From Gemmatimonadaceae bacterium (lineage in GTDB: Bacteria; Gemmatimonadota; Gemmatimonadetes; Gemmatimonadales; Gemmatimonadaceae), in NCBI GenBank assembly GCA_025358925.1, contig JANYHT010000039.1, forward strand, positions 310,001 to 374,000: a DNA stretch of 64,000 nucleotides. The letters are read 5' to 3'. The translations under genes and the position numbers were made by a program. Each line of letters starts with the position of its first letter. Positions within the stretch are counted from its first letter, which is position 1. Shown here one piece after another: positions 7,218 through 19,320 of this stretch. The notes under the pieces were generated by a model, which was given only the letters and a program-made list of their open reading frames with translations, ran no database searches and was not told the origin of the DNA.

Positions 7218-7751
7218 TCAGGGTACCTTTTTTCTCGTACTATCCGGCGTGACAGTCTTCCGATTGGGCTTGACGGTTGGCTCAGCCGGACGCGCCGACT
7301 GCGGCGTGCTAAAGTCGCCCGGTTCGTCGGCCGAGAGAATGTCCTGCGTCCAGTCTTGCGTGCGTTGCAACGCTTTTGTCGAATCGGCGCGAAACTGCAG
7401 TCCCATCGCCCACATGCCTGCCGTCACAAACATCAAGTTCGTGCGATAGGTACCCAGCTCCCCGGTCTCTTCAAGGCCGTTGGCAACCGTCTTTCGATCC
7501 TTATTCGTTGCGAAGACGCGGCCTTGGCCGCCTTGAATTGGCTTGCCGGTGTGCACGTCATTCACGATGACGCGCCAATAGGTGGGCTCCAACGCGCGCG
7601 TGGGCTTCGATTCGACCGTCACCCGGACAACAAAGCTATCCGTCACGAACCGAAGTTCGTTGAGTGGCGCCGTCCCGCTGCCGCAGGCGGCCACGCTCAG
7701 GCCGCCCACGATTGCTAGAAGAAACACTGCGCACGCGCGGAGGAGTTTCAT
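7218..7751 (-). CDS. Predicted lipoprotein, unknown
   Basis: 177 residues with a clear lipoprotein signal: MKLLRACAVFLLAIVGGLSVAAC, with the lipobox Cys at 23. The mature part has a beta-rich domain (about 30-140) whose pattern, an ETGELGTYRTNLMFVTAGMW-like segment near 95-115, resembles YtkA/FixH-type beta-sandwich proteins. The last 35 residues are Pro/Thr/Lys-rich and probably disordered. The ATG overlaps the stop of the inositol-phosphate synthase gene (ATGA). Likely anchored in a membrane facing the periplasm; the role is unknown. Confidence 0.7.
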   Translation of the reverse strand: MKLLRACAVFLLAIVGGLSVAACGSGTAPLNELRFVTDSFVVRVTVESKPTRALEPTYWRVIVNDVHTGKPIQGGQGRVFATNKDRKTVANGLEETGELGTYRTNLMFVTAGMWAMGLQFRADSTKALQRTQDWTQDILSADEPGDFSTPQSARPAEPTVKPNRKTVTPDSTRKKVP

Positions 7752-9079
7752 TGATAATACTCGAGCCCGAGATGAGTAATCTGCTCCTCACCCATCAGGT
7801 GTCGGAGCGTGTTCTTCAGCTTCGTTTGCTGAATAAAAAGATCATGTTCGGGTTGTAATCCTGGAGCGGTTTGGGGCGACTTGTAATAGAAGCTTAACCA
7901 TTCCTGAATGCCCTTCATACCGGCACGCATCGCGAAGTCGCTGAACAGGGCAAGATCGAGAACGATTGGCGCGGCGAGAATAGAATCGCGGCAAAGAAAG
8001 TTGACCTTGATCTGCATCGGATAGCCAAGCCAGCCTTTGATGTCGATGCTATCCCAGCCTTCCTTGTTATCACCACGCGGCGGGTAGTAGTTGATACGCA
8101 CCACGTGCGAAAAATCTTTATATAACTCAGGGTACAACTCGGGCTGCAGAATGGTGTGCAGCACCGACAGTTTCGACTCTTCCTTCGTTTTGAACGACGC
8201 GGGATCGTCGAGCACTTCGCCGTCGCGGTTGCCAAGAATATTCGTGGAGTACCAGCCCTCGAGGCCGAGCATGCGCGCTTTCAGGCCCGGCGCAATGACG
8301 GTTTTCAGCCACGTTTGACCCGTCTTAAAATCTTTGCCCGACACCGGCACACCTTTCTTGACAGCTAAACCGAGCAACGCAGGGAAATCGGCGGACAAAT
8401 TCGGTGCACCATTGCAATAGGGGACGCCCTCCATAATCGCGGCCCACGCGTACAGCATGCTCGGGGCGATCGCATCATCACTCTCCTCCATCGCCTGCTC
8501 GAACGCTTCGATGGTTTGATGCTGCGGTCCCGCTTTGATATACGTCTCCGTCGAGCCACACCACACCATGGCCGCGCGCGCCGCCCCGTGCTCTTTCATA
8601 AAATTTCGAATGTCAGCGCGAATCTGCTCGGCGAGATCGCGTTTGTTCTTCCCGGTTTTTACGTTGGTCGCACCAGTAATGCGCGTGACGTAGCGGAGCT
8701 CAAAAGCTGCGGGCATCGGCTTAATGCTTTTGAGAAACTCCGCGACAGGCTCGAGATCGGATTTTTCCAACACGCCGGCTTTCGTCGCCGCGGTAAAGGC
8801 GTCATCGGGGATCGGATCCCATGCGCCGAACACGATATCATCGAGTGACGCCAGCGGCACCAGATCGCGAATAAGAGGACTGCGGTTCTCCGTGCGCTTG
8901 CCCAAGCGAATGGTGGCCATCTGCGAGAGCGATCCAATAGGCACCGAAAGGCCGCGCCGCACGCGTTCGACACCGGCCATAAACGTGGTGGAGACGGCGC
9001 CCAGACCCGGAGTGAAAATCGCCAACTTGCCGGTGGCGGGGGCGATAGACGCGGCACTGCTGCGGAGCGAATCGGTCAC
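7748..9079 (-). CDS. ino1: Inositol-3-phosphate synthase
   Basis: NAD-dependent enzyme that cyclises glucose-6-phosphate to myo-inositol-3-phosphate in the cytoplasm. Seen: the Rossmann glycine motif TPGLGAVSTTF (23-33), NLSADFPALLGLAVKKGVP and GKDFKTGQTWLKT in the centre, and SILAAPIVLDLALFSDFAMR near the C-terminus, all characteristic of MIPS proteins. At 443 residues it is longer than the actinobacterial form (about 365) and closer to the Bacteroidota form. The GTG start at 9079 overlaps the stop of the upstream phosphatidyltransferase gene (GTGA), a strong sign that the two act in one inositol-lipid pathway. Confidence 0.92.
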   Translation of the reverse strand: MTDSLRSSAASIAPATGKLAIFTPGLGAVSTTFMAGVERVRRGLSVPIGSLSQMATIRLGKRTENRSPLIRDLVPLASLDDIVFGAWDPIPDDAFTAATKAGVLEKSDLEPVAEFLKSIKPMPAAFELRYVTRITGATNVKTGKNKRDLAEQIRADIRNFMKEHGAARAAMVWCGSTETYIKAGPQHQTIEAFEQAMEESDDAIAPSMLYAWAAIMEGVPYCNGAPNLSADFPALLGLAVKKGVPVSGKDFKTGQTWLKTVIAPGLKARMLGLEGWYSTNILGNRDGEVLDDPASFKTKEESKLSVLHTILQPELYPELYKDFSHVVRINYYPPRGDNKEGWDSIDIKGWLGYPMQIKVNFLCRDSILAAPIVLDLALFSDFAMRAGMKGIQEWLSFYYKSPQTAPGLQPEHDLFIQQTKLKNTLRHLMGEEQITHLGLEYYQ

Positions 9080-9705
9080 TTCGGCAACTCTCCCTGAGTG
9101 GTCGTACGATAAACGTACAAAATGCGTTGAACTGCGGTAATCCAGGCGGTGACAGACAGCAACGTGACGATGGCCGCGAGGACCCAGCCATTTAACGCGA
9201 GACCAAAGAATGCTTGCGGCGCGGATAACAACGTGATGCGTTCGGGCCGTTGGAGCAGGCCCACCTTCGCGTCGAGTCCGAGCCCTTCCGCACGCGCCCG
9301 TGTGTACGACGTAACAAACGTGCCGATCAGTCCGAGCAGCGTAATCGTGAGCATGATGTTGCTCTCGTGCACCGTACTCGTAGCATAAAACACGACCAAT
9401 CCACCCAATAGCACGCCGTCGGAGACGCGATCTAACGTTGAGTCGTAGAATGCGCCGAATACCGAACTACGCCCCGTCCGCCGCGCCACTGTACCGTCGA
9501 GCACGTCGAACAGCGCCGTCACGCCGAGAAACCAGCCAGCCGTTTTGATGTGCCCGCTCGCAAAAATGCCGCCGGCGATCACCGTGCAGATCGTTCCGAC
9601 CGTCGTGATCGTATTCGGATGCACACGACGTCGCACCAGCCAATCGGCGACCGGCTCGATGAGCCGAAGATAGCCGCGTTGAATCGCGTCCCACAGAGAT
9701 TGCAT
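9076..9705 (-). CDS. CDP-alcohol phosphatidyltransferase, probable phosphatidylinositol-phosphate synthase
   Basis: Integral membrane enzyme that moves a CDP-linked lipid onto an alcohol. The complete family signature DxxDGxxARx8GxxxDxxxD is present (D67, D70, G71, A74, R75, G84, D88, D92), with about six hydrophobic segments around it. The ATG at 9703-9705 gives a normal 209-residue protein; the longer reading adds 38 residues translated from a perfect inverted repeat and is rejected. The overlapping inositol-3-phosphate synthase gene suggests the acceptor is inositol-3-phosphate, as in actinobacterial and Bacteroides systems. PgsA-type glycerophosphate transfer is the alternative. No phosphatase for the second step is adjacent. 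Confidence 0.88.
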   Translation of the reverse strand: MQSLWDAIQRGYLRLIEPVADWLVRRRVHPNTITTVGTICTVIAGGIFASGHIKTAGWFLGVTALFDVLDGTVARRTGRSSVFGAFYDSTLDRVSDGVLLGGLVVFYATSTVHESNIMLTITLLGLIGTFVTSYTRARAEGLGLDAKVGLLQRPERITLLSAPQAFFGLALNGWVLAAIVTLLSVTAWITAVQRILYVYRTTTQGELPK

Positions 9706-9739
9706 CTCGTCTGATGCTGGAGAGTTGGGACCGGAAGCG

Positions 9740-9771
9740 GTGACGGGACGAGGCGAGCCTCGTCCCGTCAC
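9740..9771. repeat. Perfect 14-bp inverted repeat, hairpin
   Basis: The arms at 9740-9753 and 9758-9771 are exact reverse complements, separated by the four bases CGAG. It sits in the 132-bp gap between the NamZ stop and the phosphatidyltransferase start, both on the minus strand. There is no T-tract on either side, so it is a factor-assisted terminator, an mRNA stability element or a protein site rather than a classic intrinsic terminator. A weaker 5-bp hairpin (CCTAG, loop CAAA, CTAGG) lies about 40 bases away next to the NamZ stop. Confidence 0.75.
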
Positions 9772-9837
9772 ATGGCCGGACTGAACAGTCCAACCGCAGA
9801 GGAAGCGTTGCCCTAGCAAACTAGGACCGGCCCCCCA

Positions 9838-11187
9838 TCAACGGTAGAGATGATACCGTCGCACATCCCGTTCGAATGCGACAATGGCCGGCAATTGTCG
9901 ATCCATGACCGCGTCAGGATCGGCACCGGCCAAGATGGCTTCGCGAACGCGAGCGGAACCCATACGCAGATCAAACCCCCGGTCGTCGATGTGCAAGGAG
10001 TCTCGATTTACGCGTGCCAACCCCCAGAGCAGCGCGGCGCCGACCCGCGCTGGCTGGACCAGCGCACGATCGGTGACTTCAATGCGCAATCCCGGAATGG
10101 ATTGTCCGCCATACTTGCCGTCGCCCGGCTGTACCGGCGTAAATCGCTCCGCATGAAATCGAACGCCCGTCAGCGCGAGATCTTCGAGCAGTCGCACCAG
10201 CGTGTCCGCACGCATCCACGGCGCACCAACGCGCTGAAACGGATCGTTCGTACCGCGCCCGACCGAGAGATTGGACGACTCGAACGGCACCAACGCCGGA
10301 TACAACAACGCACTTGTTTGATTCGGTAAATTGGGCGAAGGTCGCACCCAAGGAAGCTGGGTCTGGTTGAACCACATCGCGCGGCGCCAATACTGCATCG
10401 GCACGACCGTCAACCGCGTCCCCAATTTCAACTGCCCTTGGAAGAGTCGCGCGAGCTCGCCCATGGTGAGACCGTGCCGCAGCGGAAGCGGAAACAACGC
10501 GAAGCCATTGGCTGATTTTGTGGGGCTCGGCTCTTCTGCGTTCGCCAGCGATGAGTCGAGAATTGCGCCTTCCGTTCGAACGCCGGACAACGGATTGGGA
10601 CGATCAAGCACGAGGACCGGAATGCCACGGCGCGCACCCGCTTTCATGGCATAGAGCATCACGCCGACATATGTCCACGTTCGCGTACCGATGTCCTGTA
10701 GATCCACCACCAATACGTCGACATCGGTAAGCAGACTATCCGGAGGAGCGATGGTTGACTTCTGATATAACGAGTGGACGATAAGTCCCGTTTTTTCGTC
10801 TTTTTCGTCGGCGACATTTACGTGATCGGCAGTGCCCGCGACGCCATGCTCCGGCGAGAACAATCGCACGAGCTTCACGCCTGCACGTTGTGCGCGAGGG
10901 TCGCTGAAGAGCAGATCAATGGATCGACGTCCGCGCTCATCAACACCCGTTTGATTGGTGATGAGGGCGACGCGCTTGCCGGACACCAGCCGGATGCTAT
11001 CGTCCATGAGCACGGAAATACCAGGACGGACGCGACGAGTGATGCGCAACGGCATCCCATCGATACCGTCTTCCGGCAGCGGTTGATTGTCCGGTGGGCG
11101 ATTATTGCCCGCGCACGCAATCACGCCACTGCCAATGCTCAACGCGACGAGCGCGCGCCGCAGGACTGAGCGCGCCGACTTTCTCAC
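9838..11187 (-). CDS. Exo-beta-N-acetylmuramidase NamZ family (DUF1343), secreted
   Basis: DUF1343 proteins include NamZ, which cleaves terminal MurNAc from MurNAc-GlcNAc chains outside the cytoplasm. Seen: ALITNQTGVDERGR, FSPEHGVAG, VDVLVVDLQDIGTRTWTY, LDRPNPL and PLRHGLTMGELA, the family's conserved blocks, in a mature region of about 400 residues. The GTG at 11187 is chosen because it begins a lipoprotein signal (MRKSARSVLRRALVALSIG, then a lipobox ending IAC about 25 residues in). A longer ATG reading adds 63 residues that run antisense through the start of the divergent gene. It lies head to head with the NagZ fusion, matching the known namZ-nagZ partnership of Bacillus. Confidence 0.88.
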   Translation of the reverse strand: MRKSARSVLRRALVALSIGSGVIACAGNNRPPDNQPLPEDGIDGMPLRITRRVRPGISVLMDDSIRLVSGKRVALITNQTGVDERGRRSIDLLFSDPRAQRAGVKLVRLFSPEHGVAGTADHVNVADEKDEKTGLIVHSLYQKSTIAPPDSLLTDVDVLVVDLQDIGTRTWTYVGVMLYAMKAGARRGIPVLVLDRPNPLSGVRTEGAILDSSLANAEEPSPTKSANGFALFPLPLRHGLTMGELARLFQGQLKLGTRLTVVPMQYWRRAMWFNQTQLPWVRPSPNLPNQTSALLYPALVPFESSNLSVGRGTNDPFQRVGAPWMRADTLVRLLEDLALTGVRFHAERFTPVQPGDGKYGGQSIPGLRIEVTDRALVQPARVGAALLWGLARVNRDSLHIDDRGFDLRMGSARVREAILAGADPDAVMDRQLPAIVAFERDVRRYHLYR

Positions 11188-11226
11188 ACGCGCACAACGC
11201 GCGGACCCTTCCGGACTTCTTTCGAG

Positions 11227-14200
11227 ATGCGTCACGCACTCCTCCAGAAATTGCCAGCGTACCGATACGGCACGCGGGTCCTCCTTCCCGGCCAACACAT
11301 CAGCTCGCGACACCCCTACGTGCGCGCACTCACTGTTGCCCTCATCACGACGGTCGTGTTTGCATGTGCATCTCAAAACGCCACACGTTCGACGGATCGT
11401 ACACCGCGTCGCAGCACGACGACACCACCCGCCGCGCTCTCGCTCAATCCCAACGTGCCGTTACCGGCGACACACCGTCGATGGATTGATAGCACGCTGA
11501 GCTCGCTCTCATTACGTGAGCGTGTGGGACAGATGGTAATGATCTGGATGCTCGGTGACTTTACCAACGCACGTGAACCGGGCTTTCTCAAGCTCGTCAC
11601 ACAAGTGCAACGCGACGGGGTGGGTGGCATCGTGATGTCACTCGGCTCACCAATTGAAGTGGCTGCCAAGTTGAATTACTTGCAGCAGCGCGCGCGTGTG
11701 CCATTGCTTGTGGGTAGCGATGTAGAGCCCGGCCTCGGTCGACTCGAAGGGGGCGTGTTTGCACCGTCCCTATATCAGGGCGGAAGCGCAACCGTCTTGC
11801 CGAGCAACATGGCAATCGGCGCATCGGGCCGCGAGGACGACGCAGAGGCGGCGGGTCGGATCGTCGGCATCGAATCGAACGCCATCGGGATTCACATGGC
11901 GTTTGCGCCGGTGGTCGACGTGAATAATAATCCGAATAACCCAGTGATCAACGTACGATCATTTGGTGAAGATCCACGCAGCGTATCGCGATTGGCGATA
12001 GCATTTGTACGCGGTGTGCAGAGCAGCGGCACTGCGGCAACCGCCAAACATTTTCCCGGACACGGCGACACGGGCACGGATTCGCATCTCGGATTGCCCG
12101 TCATCATGGTTCCGCGTTCGCGGCTTGATACCGTGGAGCTCATGCCGTTTGCTGCGGTGATTGGCGCTGGCGCTGCGGGTATGATGACGGCCCATATTGC
12201 CTTGCCGGTTGCGTATGGAGATAGCACACCAGCCACGCTGTCGCCTCGCATCATGCAGGGATTGCTTCGCGATTCGTTAGGCTTTCACGGCCTCACGCTG
12301 ACTGACGCGATGACGATGGAAGGACTCGCGAAAGGGTACGGGGTGGAAGAGAGTGTGCTGCGCGCGATCGATGCCGGCGACGACATCTTGCTCATGCCCG
12401 TCGATGTCACCAAGGCGATTGACGCGGTGGTCCACGCCGTCGAATCGGGTCGCATCACGAGCGCGCGCATCGACGTCAGCGTGCGGCGGATTCTCGAAAT
12501 GAAGTTGCGCACTGGAGCAGTTGCGCGCCCCGTCGTTCCGCTGGATTCGCTGCGCGAGCGTGTTGCGACACCCGAACATTTAGCCATCGCCGACGGCATT
12601 GCACAGCGGGCCATCACGTTGGTGCGTGATAGCGCACACTTAGTACCCATTGCGCGAAACACGAACGTGTTGTTTGTGACGTATGCGCCTGATGCGGAGC
12701 TCGTGACTGGCAGCACATTTGTCTCGGAGGCGCGTGCGCAAACGTCGAAGATGCGCAGTATTCGACTTTCGCCGCACGCGAGTGCCGACGAACTCGACAC
12801 CTTAGCGCGCGACGCGCAGCGATATGAGCGTATTGTTGTGTACAGCTACACGCGCACGCTCGAAGGCGAAGGCCGCCTCGCTATACCCACACAAATCGCT
12901 GCGTTTGTCGGTCGACTTGCGCAAACCGGAAAGTTGCTCGTCGTTGCGGGCGGTAATCCGTATCAGCTGCGACAGATGCCGCAAGTTCCCACGTATCTCG
13001 CCACATATGGTCGCGGCGATGCGCTCGAGCGCGCCGCCGCACGCGCGCTGTTTGGCGCTGCTCCAATCAGCGGTCATATACCGGTCTCGCTGCCTGGGTT
13101 CTTTTCGCGTGGTGACGGCCTGCTGCGGGATGTCACGCCGAACACCGCAATCCCATTCGCGGCACGGGCCACGGTGCTGCGCGATAGTCTGCGCGCTGTT
13201 CTCGAACGCGCCGTTGCCGATACTGCCTTTCCGGGTGCATATGCTGCCGTGGGCAACGCGGACGGCATTGTCGCGGAGTACGGAGTCGGTCACCTCGACG
13301 AGAACGACGCCACGCGTCCCGACGCCAATACCATCTGGGATCTTGCGTCGTTAACGAAAGTGATCGGCACCACAAGCGCGGTCCTCCAGCTTGTCGGAAG
13401 CGGACGCGTCGCGCTTGATTCGCCGGTCGTAAAATACTTGCCGCAATGGACGCCACTTTCGGCGCAACACATCACCGTACGCATGTTGCTGATGCACACT
13501 GCGGGATTGCCGGCGTGGCGACCGTTGTACAAGGAGGCGGCGAATGCCGCGCAGGCGGAGCAACAGTTATTTGCGACGGGGCCCGATACCATTCCAGGAA
13601 AACGATTTCTGTATAGCGATCTCGGTTTCATTTTGCTCGGCAAGATGGTTGAACGCGTGTCGGGTGAACCGCTCGCGCAGTTTGATAGCGCCCATGTCTT
13701 TGCGCCACTTGGCATGACCGATACGCGCTACCTGCCACCAGCATCTTGGTTGCCGCGCATTGCGCCGACCGAGCAAGATCCATGGCGCAATCGCAAACTG
13801 CGCGGTGAAGTGCACGACGAAAACGCGTTCATCTTGGGCGGTGTGTCGGGTCACGCGGGACTCTTCTCAACAGGTCGGGACTTGGCACGATTTGCCCGCA
13901 TGTATTTGCGCGCGGGCGAACTTGACGGGCATCGCGTGTTCCCGTCGTCCACCGTCGCCGCATTTACGACCGTGCAAGACACGTCCATCTCGCGACGCGC
14001 GTTAGGATGGGAGACACCGACCGGAGGCAATTCGGCCGGACATCTGCTGACGAGCCACGCCTTCGGACACACCGGTTTTACGGGGACGTCGGTCTGGATG
14101 GACCCAGGGCAAGGACTCTTCATCATCCTCCTCACAAATCGCGTCAATCCGACGAGAGAGAACCGAAAAATCGGTGCCGTCCGCAGTGCCCTTGCAGACG

Positions 14201-14259
14201 CCGCCATTCTGGCGCTGCGGCCCGATGCGCGCTCGGGCAGTGCCCGACCACCGCGATAG
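11227..14259 (+). CDS. NagZ-type beta-N-acetylglucosaminidase (GH3) fused to a beta-lactamase-like serine hydrolase
   Basis: Exported protein of about 1010 residues. A hydrophobic stretch at 32-46 ends in a Cys at 47 (VVFAC), so it is probably a lipoprotein; a GTG at 11320 is the alternative start and gives a shorter signal. The GH3 domain (about 85-420) carries the NagZ general-acid motif KHFPGHGDTGTDSH near 273-286 and the nucleophile Asp360 in TDAMTMEG. A linking domain follows (about 440-640), then a class-C-beta-lactamase/transpeptidase-like domain with SLTK at 708-711, YSD at 796-798 and HTG at 948-950. It would remove GlcNAc from peptidoglycan fragments; the second domain probably acts on peptides or is an esterase. 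Similar fusions are known in Bacteroidota. Confidence 0.92.
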   Translation: MRHALLQKLPAYRYGTRVLLPGQHISSRHPYVRALTVALITTVVFACASQNATRSTDRTPRRSTTTPPAALSLNPNVPLPATHRRWIDSTLSSLSLRERVGQMVMIWMLGDFTNAREPGFLKLVTQVQRDGVGGIVMSLGSPIEVAAKLNYLQQRARVPLLVGSDVEPGLGRLEGGVFAPSLYQGGSATVLPSNMAIGASGREDDAEAAGRIVGIESNAIGIHMAFAPVVDVNNNPNNPVINVRSFGEDPRSVSRLAIAFVRGVQSSGTAATAKHFPGHGDTGTDSHLGLPVIMVPRSRLDTVELMPFAAVIGAGAAGMMTAHIALPVAYGDSTPATLSPRIMQGLLRDSLGFHGLTLTDAMTMEGLAKGYGVEESVLRAIDAGDDILLMPVDVTKAIDAVVHAVESGRITSARIDVSVRRILEMKLRTGAVARPVVPLDSLRERVATPEHLAIADGIAQRAITLVRDSAHLVPIARNTNVLFVTYAPDAELVTGSTFVSEARAQTSKMRSIRLSPHASADELDTLARDAQRYERIVVYSYTRTLEGEGRLAIPTQIAAFVGRLAQTGKLLVVAGGNPYQLRQMPQVPTYLATYGRGDALERAAARALFGAAPISGHIPVSLPGFFSRGDGLLRDVTPNTAIPFAARATVLRDSLRAVLERAVADTAFPGAYAAVGNADGIVAEYGVGHLDENDATRPDANTIWDLASLTKVIGTTSAVLQLVGSGRVALDSPVVKYLPQWTPLSAQHITVRMLLMHTAGLPAWRPLYKEAANAAQAEQQLFATGPDTIPGKRFLYSDLGFILLGKMVERVSGEPLAQFDSAHVFAPLGMTDTRYLPPASWLPRIAPTEQDPWRNRKLRGEVHDENAFILGGVSGHAGLFSTGRDLARFARMYLRAGELDGHRVFPSSTVAAFTTVQDTSISRRALGWETPTGGNSAGHLLTSHAFGHTGFTGTSVWMDPGQGLFIILLTNRVNPTRENRKIGAVRSALADAAILALRPDARSGSARPPR

Positions 14260-14445: not shown

Positions 14446-14802
14446 ATGAGCACGATGCAGCAGCCGGATACGTTGGTCGTCATCACCTCCGTCGCCGGAG
14501 TGGAAGTTCAAAAATTCATGGTTGCGGAAGGTGTGACGCCAGAGCAAGGTGGCCTGCGCGTCTCGGTGATGCCCGGCGGCTGTAGCGGCTTTAAATACGG
14601 GCTCGTGATCGAAGACAAAAGTGCCGAAGACGACATCGTGCTTGACCACGACGGTTTTCGCGTGTTTGTTGACCCGTTTTCGGCGCAATACCTGAGCGGC
14701 ACCGTGATCGACTACGTGACATCCATGCAAGGCTCGGGCTTCACATTCAAGAACCCCAGCTCGACCGGCGGCTGCGGCTGCGGTAGTTCTTTCTCGGCCT
14801 GA
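14446..14802 (+). CDS. A-type iron-sulfur carrier (IscA/ErpA family)
   Basis: Scaffold/carrier that hands Fe-S clusters to apoproteins. 118 residues with the three invariant cysteines: C46 in PGGCSGFKYG and C110/C112 in GGCGCG, plus the conserved FVDPFSAQYLSGTVIDY segment. A GGAGAA site precedes the ATG by six bases. It is the only gene in this stretch without an obvious amino-sugar role, lying 17 nt before the NagB-PIG-L gene. ErpA or SufA-like identity cannot be separated by eye. Confidence 0.92.
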   Translation: MSTMQQPDTLVVITSVAGVEVQKFMVAEGVTPEQGGLRVSVMPGGCSGFKYGLVIEDKSAEDDIVLDHDGFRVFVDPFSAQYLSGTVIDYVTSMQGSGFTFKNPSSTGGCGCGSSFSA

Positions 14803-14818: not shown

Positions 14819-16825
14819 GTGGACGCATTTCCCGAGCCCGTTGCCATGAGTTTTTCGGCCATCGGAAATCCGGAGCAATTGCCGCTGCATCAGGCCCGCG
14901 TACTCGATTCGAGTCGCGGGCCTTTGCATACGGAAGCTCCGCATTTTCTGCAAGGAAGCGCTGCTGCGGTGTCGCGTGAGCGCATTCCGGTTGTGGTGGT
15001 GCTCGATCACGAGGCGCTGGCGCGTCTTGTCGCCTTGCGCATCGCAACCCTCATCCGAGCACGTTCCGCCGACGCTCGCTCGCTCGTGCTGGGCCTCGCC
15101 ACCGGCTCGACACCCATTGGCGTCTATCGGGAATTGATACGACTGCATCGCGAGGAAGGCTTGAGTTTTCGCCATGTGATCACGTTCAATTTGGATGAAT
15201 ATTGGCCGATGCCGCCCGAACGTATTCACTCCTATCATCGCTTCATGTGGGAGAACCTGTTCTCACAAGTGGATATTGATCCGGCAAATGTGCATTTGCT
15301 CGACGGTACGTTGCCACGCGAGCAAATCGACGACGCGTGTCGCGCGTACGAAGAGGCAATTGTCGCGGCAGGTGGAATCGATTTTCAGTTGTTGGGCATC
15401 GGCAAAACCGGCCATATCGGTTTTAACGAGCCTGGCTCAGGCGAGTTGAGTCGTACACGCCTCATCCATCTGGATCACGTGACACGTCGTGACGCCGCAG
15501 CGGATTTTTTCGGTGAAGAGAACGTACCGCGCGAAGCCATCACGATGGGGATCGCCACCATTCTCGCCGCGCGTGAAATTGCGATCTTGGCGACGGGTGA
15601 GCACAAGTCGAAAGTGGTACTGCGCGCCGTGGAAGGAGAGATTGACCGCGATGTTGCTGCCACATTTTTACAGCGACATCCAGCCACCACATTTTATGTC
15701 GACGAGCCTGCCGCCGCAGATCTGTCGCGTATCGCAACCCCCTGGCTGCTGGACGAGGTGGTGTGGACAGACGCGCTTGAGTTACGGGCAGTGACGTGGC
15801 TTGCAGGCCGCACTGGTAAGGCCATCCTGAAGCTGACGCAACAAGACTACTCGGATCATCAGCTATCATCGCTCGTTGCGCGTCACGGGTCACCCGGCGC
15901 GGTAAACGGTTTGGTATTCAACGTGCTCGGCGCAAAGATTCGCGGCAAGAGCAAACTGCCGCGCGGGAAACGCGTGATTTGCTTCTCACCGCATCCTGAT
16001 GACGACGTCATTTCGATGGGTGGCATTCTTCGTAAGTTTGTTGAAAACGAAAACGCGATCACTGTTGCGTACATGACCAGCGGAAACATCGCCGTCTTCG
16101 ATCACGATGTGCGACGCTACATGGATTTTCTCGTGCGCCTTGATCAAGAGCGTATTGGCGATGGAACTGCCGTACGCTCGTTGGCGGAAACGGTCCACGC
16201 ATTTCTTGAAGCAAAGCGACCCGGCGAGGTTGATATCGGCGAAGTGCAAGACATCAAGCGCGTCATCCGTGAATCTGAAGCGGTAAGCGGTATCGAAGTG
16301 ATGGGGCTGAATCGTGAGCACGCTCGTTTTCTTAACTTGCCCTTTTATCAGACTGGCAAGGTGCGCAAAGATCCGATCGGCGCGCCCGACGTTGCGATCG
16401 TCGCCAATCTGTTGCGCGAATTGCAGCCGGAGATTGTATTCGTGGCTGGTGATTTGTCGGATCCGCACGGTACACACCGCATGTGCAAGGAAGCCATCGA
16501 TGCCGCATTACTCGAAGTGTATGGCCATCGTGCACCGACGAACGGATCGGTCGCGGCGCCAGAGGTGTGGCTTTACCGTGGCGCGTGGCAGGAATGGCCC
16601 GTGACGGAGGCCACTGTGTTGGTGCCGTTGTCGCAGGAAGAACTGACGCTCAAGATTCAAGCGATCTTCAAGCATCAATCGCAGAAGGATTCTGCGCCGT
16701 TTCCTGGGCAGGACGAACGCGAATTCTGGCAACGCGTTGAACAGCGCAATAAAGCCACCTCCGCTCAACTCGATCGTTTGGGTCTCGCCGAATACTTCGC
16801 CATGGAAGCCTATGTTATCGCCTAG
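14819..16825 (+). CDS. Glucosamine-6-phosphate deaminase (NagB-like) fused to a PIG-L/LmbE deacetylase domain
   Basis: 668 residues, two domains. The NagB part (about 58-330) has LGLATGSTPIGVYREL, the catalytic-base region NLDEYWP (D126-E127) and GIGKTGHIGFNEPGS with His199 and Glu204; the residue equal to Asp141 of E. coli NagB is Thr197. The C-terminal part (about 375-660) is a zinc-dependent PIG-L/LmbE deacetylase with PHPDDD near 390 and HGTH about 160 residues later. Expected chemistry: deamination of glucosamine-6-P to fructose-6-P, and possibly removal of acetyl from a GlcNAc compound. ATG 14846 is an alternative start. The symporter gene follows after 12 nt. Confidence 0.9.
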   Translation: MDAFPEPVAMSFSAIGNPEQLPLHQARVLDSSRGPLHTEAPHFLQGSAAAVSRERIPVVVVLDHEALARLVALRIATLIRARSADARSLVLGLATGSTPIGVYRELIRLHREEGLSFRHVITFNLDEYWPMPPERIHSYHRFMWENLFSQVDIDPANVHLLDGTLPREQIDDACRAYEEAIVAAGGIDFQLLGIGKTGHIGFNEPGSGELSRTRLIHLDHVTRRDAAADFFGEENVPREAITMGIATILAAREIAILATGEHKSKVVLRAVEGEIDRDVAATFLQRHPATTFYVDEPAAADLSRIATPWLLDEVVWTDALELRAVTWLAGRTGKAILKLTQQDYSDHQLSSLVARHGSPGAVNGLVFNVLGAKIRGKSKLPRGKRVICFSPHPDDDVISMGGILRKFVENENAITVAYMTSGNIAVFDHDVRRYMDFLVRLDQERIGDGTAVRSLAETVHAFLEAKRPGEVDIGEVQDIKRVIRESEAVSGIEVMGLNREHARFLNLPFYQTGKVRKDPIGAPDVAIVANLLRELQPEIVFVAGDLSDPHGTHRMCKEAIDAALLEVYGHRAPTNGSVAAPEVWLYRGAWQEWPVTEATVLVPLSQEELTLKIQAIFKHQSQKDSAPFPGQDEREFWQRVEQRNKATSAQLDRLGLAEYFAMEAYVIA

Positions 16826-16837
16826 CAACGCGCCGTC

Positions 16838-18373
16838 GTGACCGGTCGTTTTAACCTTGTCGATTTGGCGGTGTTGCTGATCTACCTGAGCGGCACCACC
16901 GCGCTCGGCATGTGGATTGGACGCTCGCAGAAATCGGCCAACGATTATTTCGTAGCGGAGCGGTCAATCCCGTGGTGGGCAGTGCTGTTTTCGATTGTGG
17001 CGAGTGAAACGTCAGCGCTCACGTTTATCAGTATTCCGGGACTCGCGTACACGGGCAATCTTGGATTTTTGCAGGTGGTCGCCGGCTATATCATTGGTCG
17101 ATTTGTCGTTTCGTTCACGCTGTTGCCAAAATATTTTGAAGGACAACTGGTGACCGCCTATGCATTACTCGAAACGCGGTTCGGACTAACGACGCGTCGC
17201 TTCACGTCGATTGTGTTTATGGGCACGCGCGCATTGGCCGATTCGGTGCGTGTCTTTGCGACCGCAATTCCGGTGGCGCTGATTATCGGTCCGGCGTTGC
17301 CGAAAGCGTATGCGATGCCAACGGCGATTATTGTGTTGGGATTGCTCACCGTGATTTACACGTATCGCGGCGGTATGAAGGCCGTCGTGTGGACGGAGCT
17401 TGTGCAAGCGGCGGTGTATGTGATCGGCGGCCTTTCAGCGATCGTGCTCATTGGCCAATCCGTGAATGGCGGATGGAGCGAGATTTTTCGGCAAGCGGGC
17501 GCGGCTGGCAAGTTGCAAGTGATCGACACCTACACCGGGTTTGACAAACCGCATACCATTTACGCGGGATTAATTGGTGGTGCGTTTCTCGCGATGGCCT
17601 CACACGGTGCCGACCAGCTGATCGTGCAGCGGCTGCTCTCGAGTCGCTCGTTGAAAGACGCGCAGCGCGCGCTGATTGGCAGTGGCTTTGTGGTGTTTGC
17701 GCAGTTCACGCTGTTTTTGATGGTCGGACTCGGTCTCTGGGTACTGTTTCAGGGTCGCGTGTTTGCCGCCGCCGATCAAATCTTTCCGAGCTACATCGTT
17801 GAACGCATGCCGCATGGCTTGGTTGGACTCATTGTGGCTGCGATTGTTGCCGCAACGATGAGCACACATTCGGGAACGATTAACGCGTTGGCCGCATCAA
17901 CGACGCACGACATTTACTTGCCACTCACGGGCCGTCGCGCGGATGACCCACGGACGCTCAAAGTGGGCAAACTTTTTGCACTGGCGTGGGGCATTGTGCT
18001 TACGGTTGGCGCGCTGTTATTCAAGGAACAGGGAACGCCGGTAGTCGTGATTGCATTGTCGATAGCATCATTCACCTACGGTGGTCTGTTGGGGGGATTT
18101 TCACTCGGACTGTTTTGGAAGCGCGCGATTCAGCGCGATGCTCTGCTCGGCATGAGTGTCGGTATTGGATGCATGGCGTTCATCGTCTTTGCAAAACAAT
18201 TCGTCGTTGCGTTTCCGCAGTTGGCTGACACGCTTGGTCCGTTTGGCTCGATTGCATGGCCGTGGTATGTGTTGATCGGCACGTCGATTACGTTCGTGAC
18301 TGGCGTACTTTCATCTCTGACTCACGCGGAGCCTCCAGCGGTGCCGATCACTATTACGGGAATTCGCTCATGA
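16838..18373 (+). CDS. Sodium:solute symporter (SSS family), probable amino-sugar importer
   Basis: 511 residues with about 13 membrane segments and the SSS signatures: GMWIGRSQKSANDYFVAERSIPWW at 22-46 and a mid-protein AIVAATMSTHSGTINALAASTTHDIY (the helix that carries sodium-site Ser/Thr residues). The start is GTG at 16838; no strong ribosome site is visible, and coupling from the upstream gene 12 nt away is likely. Its stop overlaps the kinase start (ATGA). Family members carry sugars, amino acids or sialic acid; GlcNAc, MurNAc or a disaccharide is inferred only from the neighbours. Confidence 0.9.
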   Translation: MTGRFNLVDLAVLLIYLSGTTALGMWIGRSQKSANDYFVAERSIPWWAVLFSIVASETSALTFISIPGLAYTGNLGFLQVVAGYIIGRFVVSFTLLPKYFEGQLVTAYALLETRFGLTTRRFTSIVFMGTRALADSVRVFATAIPVALIIGPALPKAYAMPTAIIVLGLLTVIYTYRGGMKAVVWTELVQAAVYVIGGLSAIVLIGQSVNGGWSEIFRQAGAAGKLQVIDTYTGFDKPHTIYAGLIGGAFLAMASHGADQLIVQRLLSSRSLKDAQRALIGSGFVVFAQFTLFLMVGLGLWVLFQGRVFAAADQIFPSYIVERMPHGLVGLIVAAIVAATMSTHSGTINALAASTTHDIYLPLTGRRADDPRTLKVGKLFALAWGIVLTVGALLFKEQGTPVVVIALSIASFTYGGLLGGFSLGLFWKRAIQRDALLGMSVGIGCMAFIVFAKQFVVAFPQLADTLGPFGSIAWPWYVLIGTSITFVTGVLSSLTHAEPPAVPITITGIRS

Positions 18374-19320
18374 GCGTCGGTCCACTCGATCCGATGCCCC
18401 TCGTTGTTGGCGTTGATGGCGGCGGGAGTCGCACGCGCGTGCTGTTGGCCGACGCGAATGGCACCATCTTGGCGAGAACGGAGGGAGCCGCGACTGCGCT
18501 CAAGCCGGGCCATGAATCCGATGCCGCCGATACCATCAGGGCGTTGATCGCCGACGTGCTGGCCATGGCCGACCGTTCCGAAACACGACCAGCGGTATGT
18601 GTGGTCGGCGTCGCGGGCGCGGGTCACGAGCGGTCGGCACAAGCGTTGTGGTCGGCGTTGGCGTCGCGTCGTATTGCCGATGACGTCTCCGTGCAAGCCG
18701 ATGCCACCATTGCCCTCGACGATGCGTTTGGCGATTCGTCGGGCGTGCTCCTTATCGCCGGCACTGGCTCTGTGGCGTTCGCGCGCGCGCCGGACGGTAC
18801 ACTGGAACGCTGCGGTGGATGGGGTCCGAATATTGGTGATGAAGGTAGTGCCGCGTGGATTGGACGTCGCGCGCTGAGCGTGATTACCGCGGCGCAAGAC
18901 GGACGTGAGCCCGAAACAGCACTTGGCGGCGCGGTCCTTACCGCGTTGGAGCTTGAGTCGCTCGAAGATCTCATTCCGTGGGCCGCGGCTGCGACGCCCG
19001 GCATATTTGCAACGCTCGCGCCGGTGATTGGGCAAGTGGCTGCTACGGGTGATCTCCGCGCTAATGCGCTGATCAGCTTGTGCGTAGAAGAACTCACACT
19101 CCACGTTCGCACGCTTGCACGGCGCTGCTTCACAGACGAACGCGCTGCGGTGCCAGTCGCGTTGTCCGGCGGTCTGCTGTCGAAAGGCTCGCTCGTGCGG
19201 AAGCGTTTGGAGCAGCGAATGAAGAGTGCGGTGCCTGGTGCGACCGTGCGCAGCGAAGAAGTAGATGCAGCACGCGGTGCCGTGCGCAGGGCGCGGCGAT
19301 TGCTTGGAGTTGAGGTGTAG
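18370..19320 (+). CDS. BadF/BadG/BcrA-type ATPase, probable N-acetylglucosamine kinase
   Basis: About 316 residues of the ASKHA sugar-kinase superfamily. PHOSPHATE-1 is VVGVDGGGSRTRVLLAD near residue 12, the adenosine region has LIAGTGSVAFAR, and GGWGPNIGDEGSAAWIG is typical of the GlcNAc-kinase branch. The ATG at 18370 overlaps the symporter TGA, so the two are translationally coupled. The likely role is phosphorylation of imported GlcNAc (or a related amino sugar) at C6, feeding the NagB fusion. A MurK-type kinase acting on both GlcNAc and MurNAc is a real alternative given NamZ nearby. Confidence 0.88.
   Translation: MSVGPLDPMPLVVGVDGGGSRTRVLLADANGTILARTEGAATALKPGHESDAADTIRALIADVLAMADRSETRPAVCVVGVAGAGHERSAQALWSALASRRIADDVSVQADATIALDDAFGDSSGVLLIAGTGSVAFARAPDGTLERCGGWGPNIGDEGSAAWIGRRALSVITAAQDGREPETALGGAVLTALELESLEDLIPWAAAATPGIFATLAPVIGQVAATGDLRANALISLCVEELTLHVRTLARRCFTDERAAVPVALSGGLLSKGSLVRKRLEQRMKSAVPGATVRSEEVDAARGAVRRARRLLGVEV

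Follow-up and report, generated by a model that had tools for sequence, protein, structure and literature searches.

A NagB–PIG-L fusion protein as a plausible replacement for NagA within the Gemmatimonadota

Introduction

Escherichia coli converts N-acetylglucosamine 6-phosphate (GlcNAc-6-P) to fructose-6-phosphate with two separate proteins, NagA and the allosteric NagB. De-N-acetylases of the PIG-L (LmbE) family are a different group of enzymes with varied substrates. A fusion of a NagB domain to a PIG-L domain is already catalogued as the NCBIfam family NF002557, which occurs in Gemmatimonadota, Bacteroidota, Planctomycetota and others and is apparently uncharacterised. No publication linking NagB or glucosamine-6-phosphate deaminase with PIG-L or LmbE was found, and the literature searched held no reported activity for any NF002557 member. 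For BT_0258, which we take to be a Bacteroides member of the family, a literature search restricted to material other than full texts returned no function. Attempts to express the chitin-locus nagB of Flavobacterium johnsoniae (Fjoh_4557) failed, and its deletion left growth on chitin unaffected, for which three other nagB-like genes were held responsible (PMC5127042). Here, a fusion gene of this kind is described from a Gemmatimonadaceae bacterium; "the window" denotes the whole stretch of 64,000 nucleotides that was analysed.

Results

The fusion is encoded by a single open reading frame of 668 codons that was called with a GTG start. The start codon is uncertain since the similarity to the family begins at about residue 46 and an in-frame ATG is found at 14846. 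The domains and motifs of the gene are as follows:

14819..16825, + strand: NagB–PIG-L fusion protein, 668 aa (alternative start ATG 14846)
15005..15673, + strand: NagB-type deaminase/isomerase domain, aa 63-285 (Pfam PF01182, Glucosamine_iso, 81 bits)
15194..15196, + strand: Asp126, equivalent of E. coli Asp72, the enolisation base (invariant in 88 fusions)
15407..15409, + strand: Thr197, equivalent of E. coli Asp141 (alignment of 88 fusions)
15980..16507, + strand: PIG-L (LmbE) zinc-dependent de-N-acetylase domain, aa 388-563 (Pfam PF02585)
15986..16006, + strand: SPHPDDD, aa 390-396, metal-binding and general-base motif (invariant in 88 fusions)
16460..16480, + strand: DPHGTHR, aa 548-554, with the HxxH metal-ligand motif at 550-553 (His553 in 88/88 fusions, His550 in 86/88)

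The protein matches NF002557 ("glucosamine-6-phosphate deaminase-like protein") with 885.8 bits over residues 46-666 (cut-off 384), and because this match spans the whole length a chance join can be excluded. The score against the equivalog model TIGR00502 (nagB) is 249.8 bits, above the cut-off of 236.9, and the PIG-L domain scores 62.8 bits (cut-off 28.2) and contains both metal motifs, PHPDD and HxxH. Pfam, NF002557 and the motif alignment thereby bear out the two-domain architecture of the original prediction, and its residue assignments (Thr197 at codon 15407-15409, with Asp126, His199 and Glu204 retained) all proved correct in the alignment: Asp126 lies within FNLDEY and Thr197, His199 and Glu204 within GKTGHIGFNEP. 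The closest named relatives are proteins of Gemmatimonadetes MAGs (84% identical).

An AlphaFold2 model was built with 42 relatives (mean pLDDT 90.2). The modelled NagB half superimposes on Bacillus subtilis NagB (2bkv) with a Z score of 37.8 and an rmsd of 1.1 Å over 242 residues, and the PIG-L half resembles BshB (6p2t, Z 23.3), Dac (3wl3, Z 22.8) and MshB (Z 18.5), three enzymes that deacetylate GlcNAc-containing compounds. Among viral structures, good matches were obtained only to PIG-L-like phage proteins. Sequence conservation across phyla is strong in both halves. In the PIG-L half, conservation extends beyond the domain to the C-terminus, and the invariance of SPHPDDD (88/88) together with the many conserved residues up to the C-terminus indicates that this half has not decayed.

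The genes around the fusion are the following:

9838..11376, − strand: NamZ exo-beta-N-acetylmuramidase (PF07075 + PF20732)
11227..14259, + strand: GH3 (NagZ-like) domain fused to a beta-lactamase-family serine hydrolase, 1010 aa (Pfam-type domain search)
14446..14802, + strand: IscA/ErpA-family Fe-S protein (family match), with no evident role in the cluster
16838..18373, + strand: SSS-family Na+/solute symporter (PF00474), 12 bases downstream of the fusion
18364..19320, + strand: BadF/BadG-family sugar kinase (family match), overlapping the symporter gene

The symporter is probably an amino-sugar importer. The best solved relative of the kinase is a MurNAc/GlcNAc kinase (8zo3, E 1.8e-29), followed by a probable GlcNAc kinase. 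Within 15 further Gemmatimonadota loci the BadF kinase lies near the fusion in eight and the symporter adjoins it in seven, and the MurQ of the source genome is encoded on another contig. Farther upstream (window 7748-9819, − strand), an inositol-3-phosphate-synthase-like gene was noticed by eye beside a CDP-alcohol phosphatidyltransferase-like gene, which suggests inositol lipids.

The neighbourhood and the kinase relative point to a salvage of peptidoglycan sugars in which phosphorylation precedes deacetylation. The reverse order, in which the substrate of the PIG-L half is unphosphorylated GlcNAc or a GlcNAc-containing disaccharide, the BadF kinase then produces GlcN-6-P and the NagB half deaminates it, would agree with the nearest solved PIG-L chains by sequence profile, the diacetylchitobiose deacetylases, which act on non-phosphorylated sugars, and with the glucosamine kinases that are known within the BadF family. 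It is nevertheless unlikely given that the kinase matches enzymes acting on MurNAc or GlcNAc best and that the MurQ of the genome delivers GlcNAc-6-P and not GlcNAc.

The lack of a visible nagA gene, noted originally for the window, holds for the whole source genome (96% complete): all 37 candidates were scored against TIGR00221 and the best reached 30 bits (cut-off 225.65). The fusion is the sole NagB of this genome, the second TIGR00502 match reaching 46 bits. The fusion was found over the cut-off in 186 out of 295 Gemmatimonadota genomes and NagA (E<=1e-15, six candidates scored per genome) in seven, so that 184 of the 186 fusion genomes are without a NagA detected among those six candidates. 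In only two genomes (G257 and G265) do the two occur together, and in each the NagA gene lies directly next to a stand-alone NagB-like gene of its own. Four of the seven NagA genomes belong to one outgroup family, which has NagA alongside a stand-alone NagB (open frames of 259-267 aa) and lacks a fusion that exceeds the cut-off, and the seventh (G268) carries a distant homologue of the fusion. Taken together, the outgroup family, the two genomes with both genes and the distribution among the 186 genomes indicate that within the Gemmatimonadota NagA is accompanied by a separate NagB, and that the fusion does without NagA. The strongest evidence for a replacement of NagA is this pattern. MurQ was identified in 278 of the 295 genomes, including the source genome. 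Among the genomes that lack the fusion, 23 have no NagB over the cut-off and 20 contain MurQ and neither NagA nor NagB, indicating that GlcNAc-6-P can apparently be handled in some other way.

Outside the Gemmatimonadota, 40 named genomes with the fusion were examined for NagA and NagB. NagA was found in 27 of them and was missing from 13; in 20 the fusion is the sole NagB, and nine of these 20 contain NagA. The PIG-L half is thus kept even where NagA exists, and replacement of NagA does not extend to the family in general. No single conserved neighbour was found for the fusion in these phyla, where gene order is not conserved, and ROK kinases, MFS transporters and SusD proteins recur beside it in a few loci. 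The coexistence with NagA, including the nine genomes in which the fusion is the sole NagB, would fit a PIG-L half that acts on some other N-acylated hexosamine phosphate, NagA, where present, taking GlcNAc-6-P and the fusion serving as a side-substrate or repair enzyme that feeds the NagB step. Such a role is improbable in view of the 184 Gemmatimonadota fusion genomes without detected NagA, in which the fusion often lies in a GlcNAc/MurNAc salvage cluster, and many of the coexisting NagA genes adjoin, by their coordinates, a NagB-like gene of their own.

Ten records from Bacteroidota, e.g., NZ_CP095069.1 of Hymenobacter, place the fusion on a plasmid or secondary replicon. A distant full-length homologue of 784 aa (L167:2781-5132, + strand) is 25% identical to the fusion, and similar open reading frames are present in three genomes (G268, G162 and G187). 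It contains PHHDDI and the NagB motif GIGPDGHIAFNTRG, in which Asp141 is kept and the Glu148 position is apparently Thr. Judging by these sequences, the distant homologues may form a separate, apparently uncharacterised NagB–PIG-L branch.

The deaminase half was compared in an alignment of 88 fusions from Gemmatimonadota, Bacteroidota, Planctomycetota, Balneolaceae, Rhodothermales and Ignavibacteria. Asp126, His199 and Glu204 (E. coli Asp72, His143 and Glu148) and the phosphate-binding Lys263 (E. coli Lys208) are each conserved in 88/88. At the position of E. coli Asp141, 71 fusions have Thr, 10 Asn and seven Ser, and none has Asp; Thr alone is therefore not universal in fusion-type NagB, and the set Thr/Asn/Ser is. 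The residue is Asp in the NagB of E. coli, human and Vibrio cholerae, and Asn in the solved enzymes of B. subtilis (2bkv) and Streptococcus mutans (2ri0, 2ri1) as well as in one stand-alone NagB from the Gemmatimonadota. Since these last three carry Asn, a non-acidic residue is ordinary in the non-allosteric branch of NagB, and the Thr of the fusion is ordinary too. The suggestion that the Asp141 to Thr change alters the ring-opening relay is accordingly unsupported, the NagB enzymes of B. subtilis and S. mutans being monomeric and active with Asn, and the substitution can be ruled out as the mark of a new mechanism. The hexameric, allosteric E. coli type is recognised by Asp141 and Lys160, where the source fusion has Thr197 and Ile216, and all 88 fusions carry Ile, Val, Met, Ala or Cys at the Lys160 position.

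The phosphate group is held in S. mutans NagB by Lys194, Thr38, Ser37 and Arg127, and Arg159 belongs to the substrate-guiding lid (PMC8369159). The four phosphate residues would correspond to Lys263, Thr98, Ser97 and Lys196 of the source fusion (position 196 is Arg in 72/88 fusions and Lys in 10/88). The position of E. coli Arg172, which is equated here with S. mutans Arg159, retains Arg in only 17/88 fusions. Acidic residues at positions 219, 225 and 229 are nearly fixed (Asp225 in 82/88, Asp229 in 75/88; aa 225-229 correspond to window 15491-15505), and the NagB enzymes of E. coli, human and B. subtilis carry other residues at the places of Asp225 and Asp229. The loss of the Arg172 equivalent together with these acidic residues is the one real difference left from other NagB proteins. 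A NagB half that is altered or catalytically dead through the Asp141 to Thr change, leaving the deacetylase alone at work, might be read from the merely "deaminase-like" family name, the absence of Asp at this position and the frequent loss of the Arg172 equivalent, and is very unlikely in the face of Asn in the B. subtilis and S. mutans enzymes, the four invariant residues, the 1.1 Å match to B. subtilis NagB and the fact that the source genome would then have no NagB whatever.

Discussion

The fusion is probably a bifunctional amino-sugar-phosphate enzyme that stands in for the missing NagA at the end of peptidoglycan-sugar salvage. On balance, the data also favour a more specific reading in which a single polypeptide, freed from the GlcNAc-6-P allosteric control of the E. 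coli type, takes GlcNAc-6-P to fructose-6-P and its PIG-L deacetylase serves as a non-homologous replacement of NagA in most of the Gemmatimonadota. The GlcNAc-deacetylating fold shared with BshB, Dac and MshB and the invariant PHPDD metal and base residues speak for this explanation, and the loss of the Arg172 equivalent in most fusions and the varied substrates of PIG-L enzymes speak against it.

We infer the substrates, both activities and the order of the pathway as follows. NamZ and NagZ would release MurNAc and GlcNAc, which the SSS protein would import and the BadF kinase phosphorylate, and MurQ would convert MurNAc-6-P to GlcNAc-6-P. The PIG-L half would then hydrolyse the N-acetyl group of GlcNAc-6-P to give GlcN-6-P, with the metal most likely held by PHPDD and HxxH, and the NagB half would isomerise and deaminate GlcN-6-P to fructose-6-P and ammonia, with Asp126 as the base and with His199 and Glu204 opening the ring, on the pattern of the monomeric Bacillus-type enzyme.

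The original proposal that the fusion may replace NagA and could convert GlcNAc-6-P to fructose-6-P is therefore partly supported. Within the Gemmatimonadota the distribution of fusion and NagA and the operon with symporter and kinase, in a neighbourhood that includes NamZ and NagZ, make the replacement plausible and well supported on comparative genomic grounds, and for the family as a whole it fails, 27 out of 40 genomes of other phyla having both. If true, it would supply the missing deacetylase step in the recycling of peptidoglycan and chitin sugars in the Gemmatimonadota and would probably close the same gap in parts of the Bacteroidota and Planctomycetota. A large family that is named only "deaminase-like" could then be annotated more precisely.

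Compared with known systems, the proposed overall reaction is that of the E. coli NagA and NagB pathway, which differs in using two proteins, in that NagA is an unrelated amidohydrolase and in the allosteric activation of NagB by GlcNAc-6-P. The NagB half is like B. subtilis NagB (2bkv) in its fold, its GIGRxGHIGFNEPG motif, the non-acidic residue at the Asp141 position and the absence of the allosteric-site Lys160 (Ile/Val in the fusion), whereas the B. subtilis protein is a stand-alone enzyme, has Asn instead of Thr and retains the Arg at the Arg172 position. With the archaeal Dac (3wl3, 8bgn) and BshB (6p2t) the PIG-L half shares the fold (Z 22-23), the PHPDD motif and deacetylation of a GlcNAc moiety, the last of which is predicted for the fusion; these enzymes are not fused to NagB, act on chitobiose or GlcNAc-malate and are about 20% identical. 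To NF002557 (PRK02122) the source protein belongs as a member, with a 621-residue match, the identical order of the two domains and no difference.
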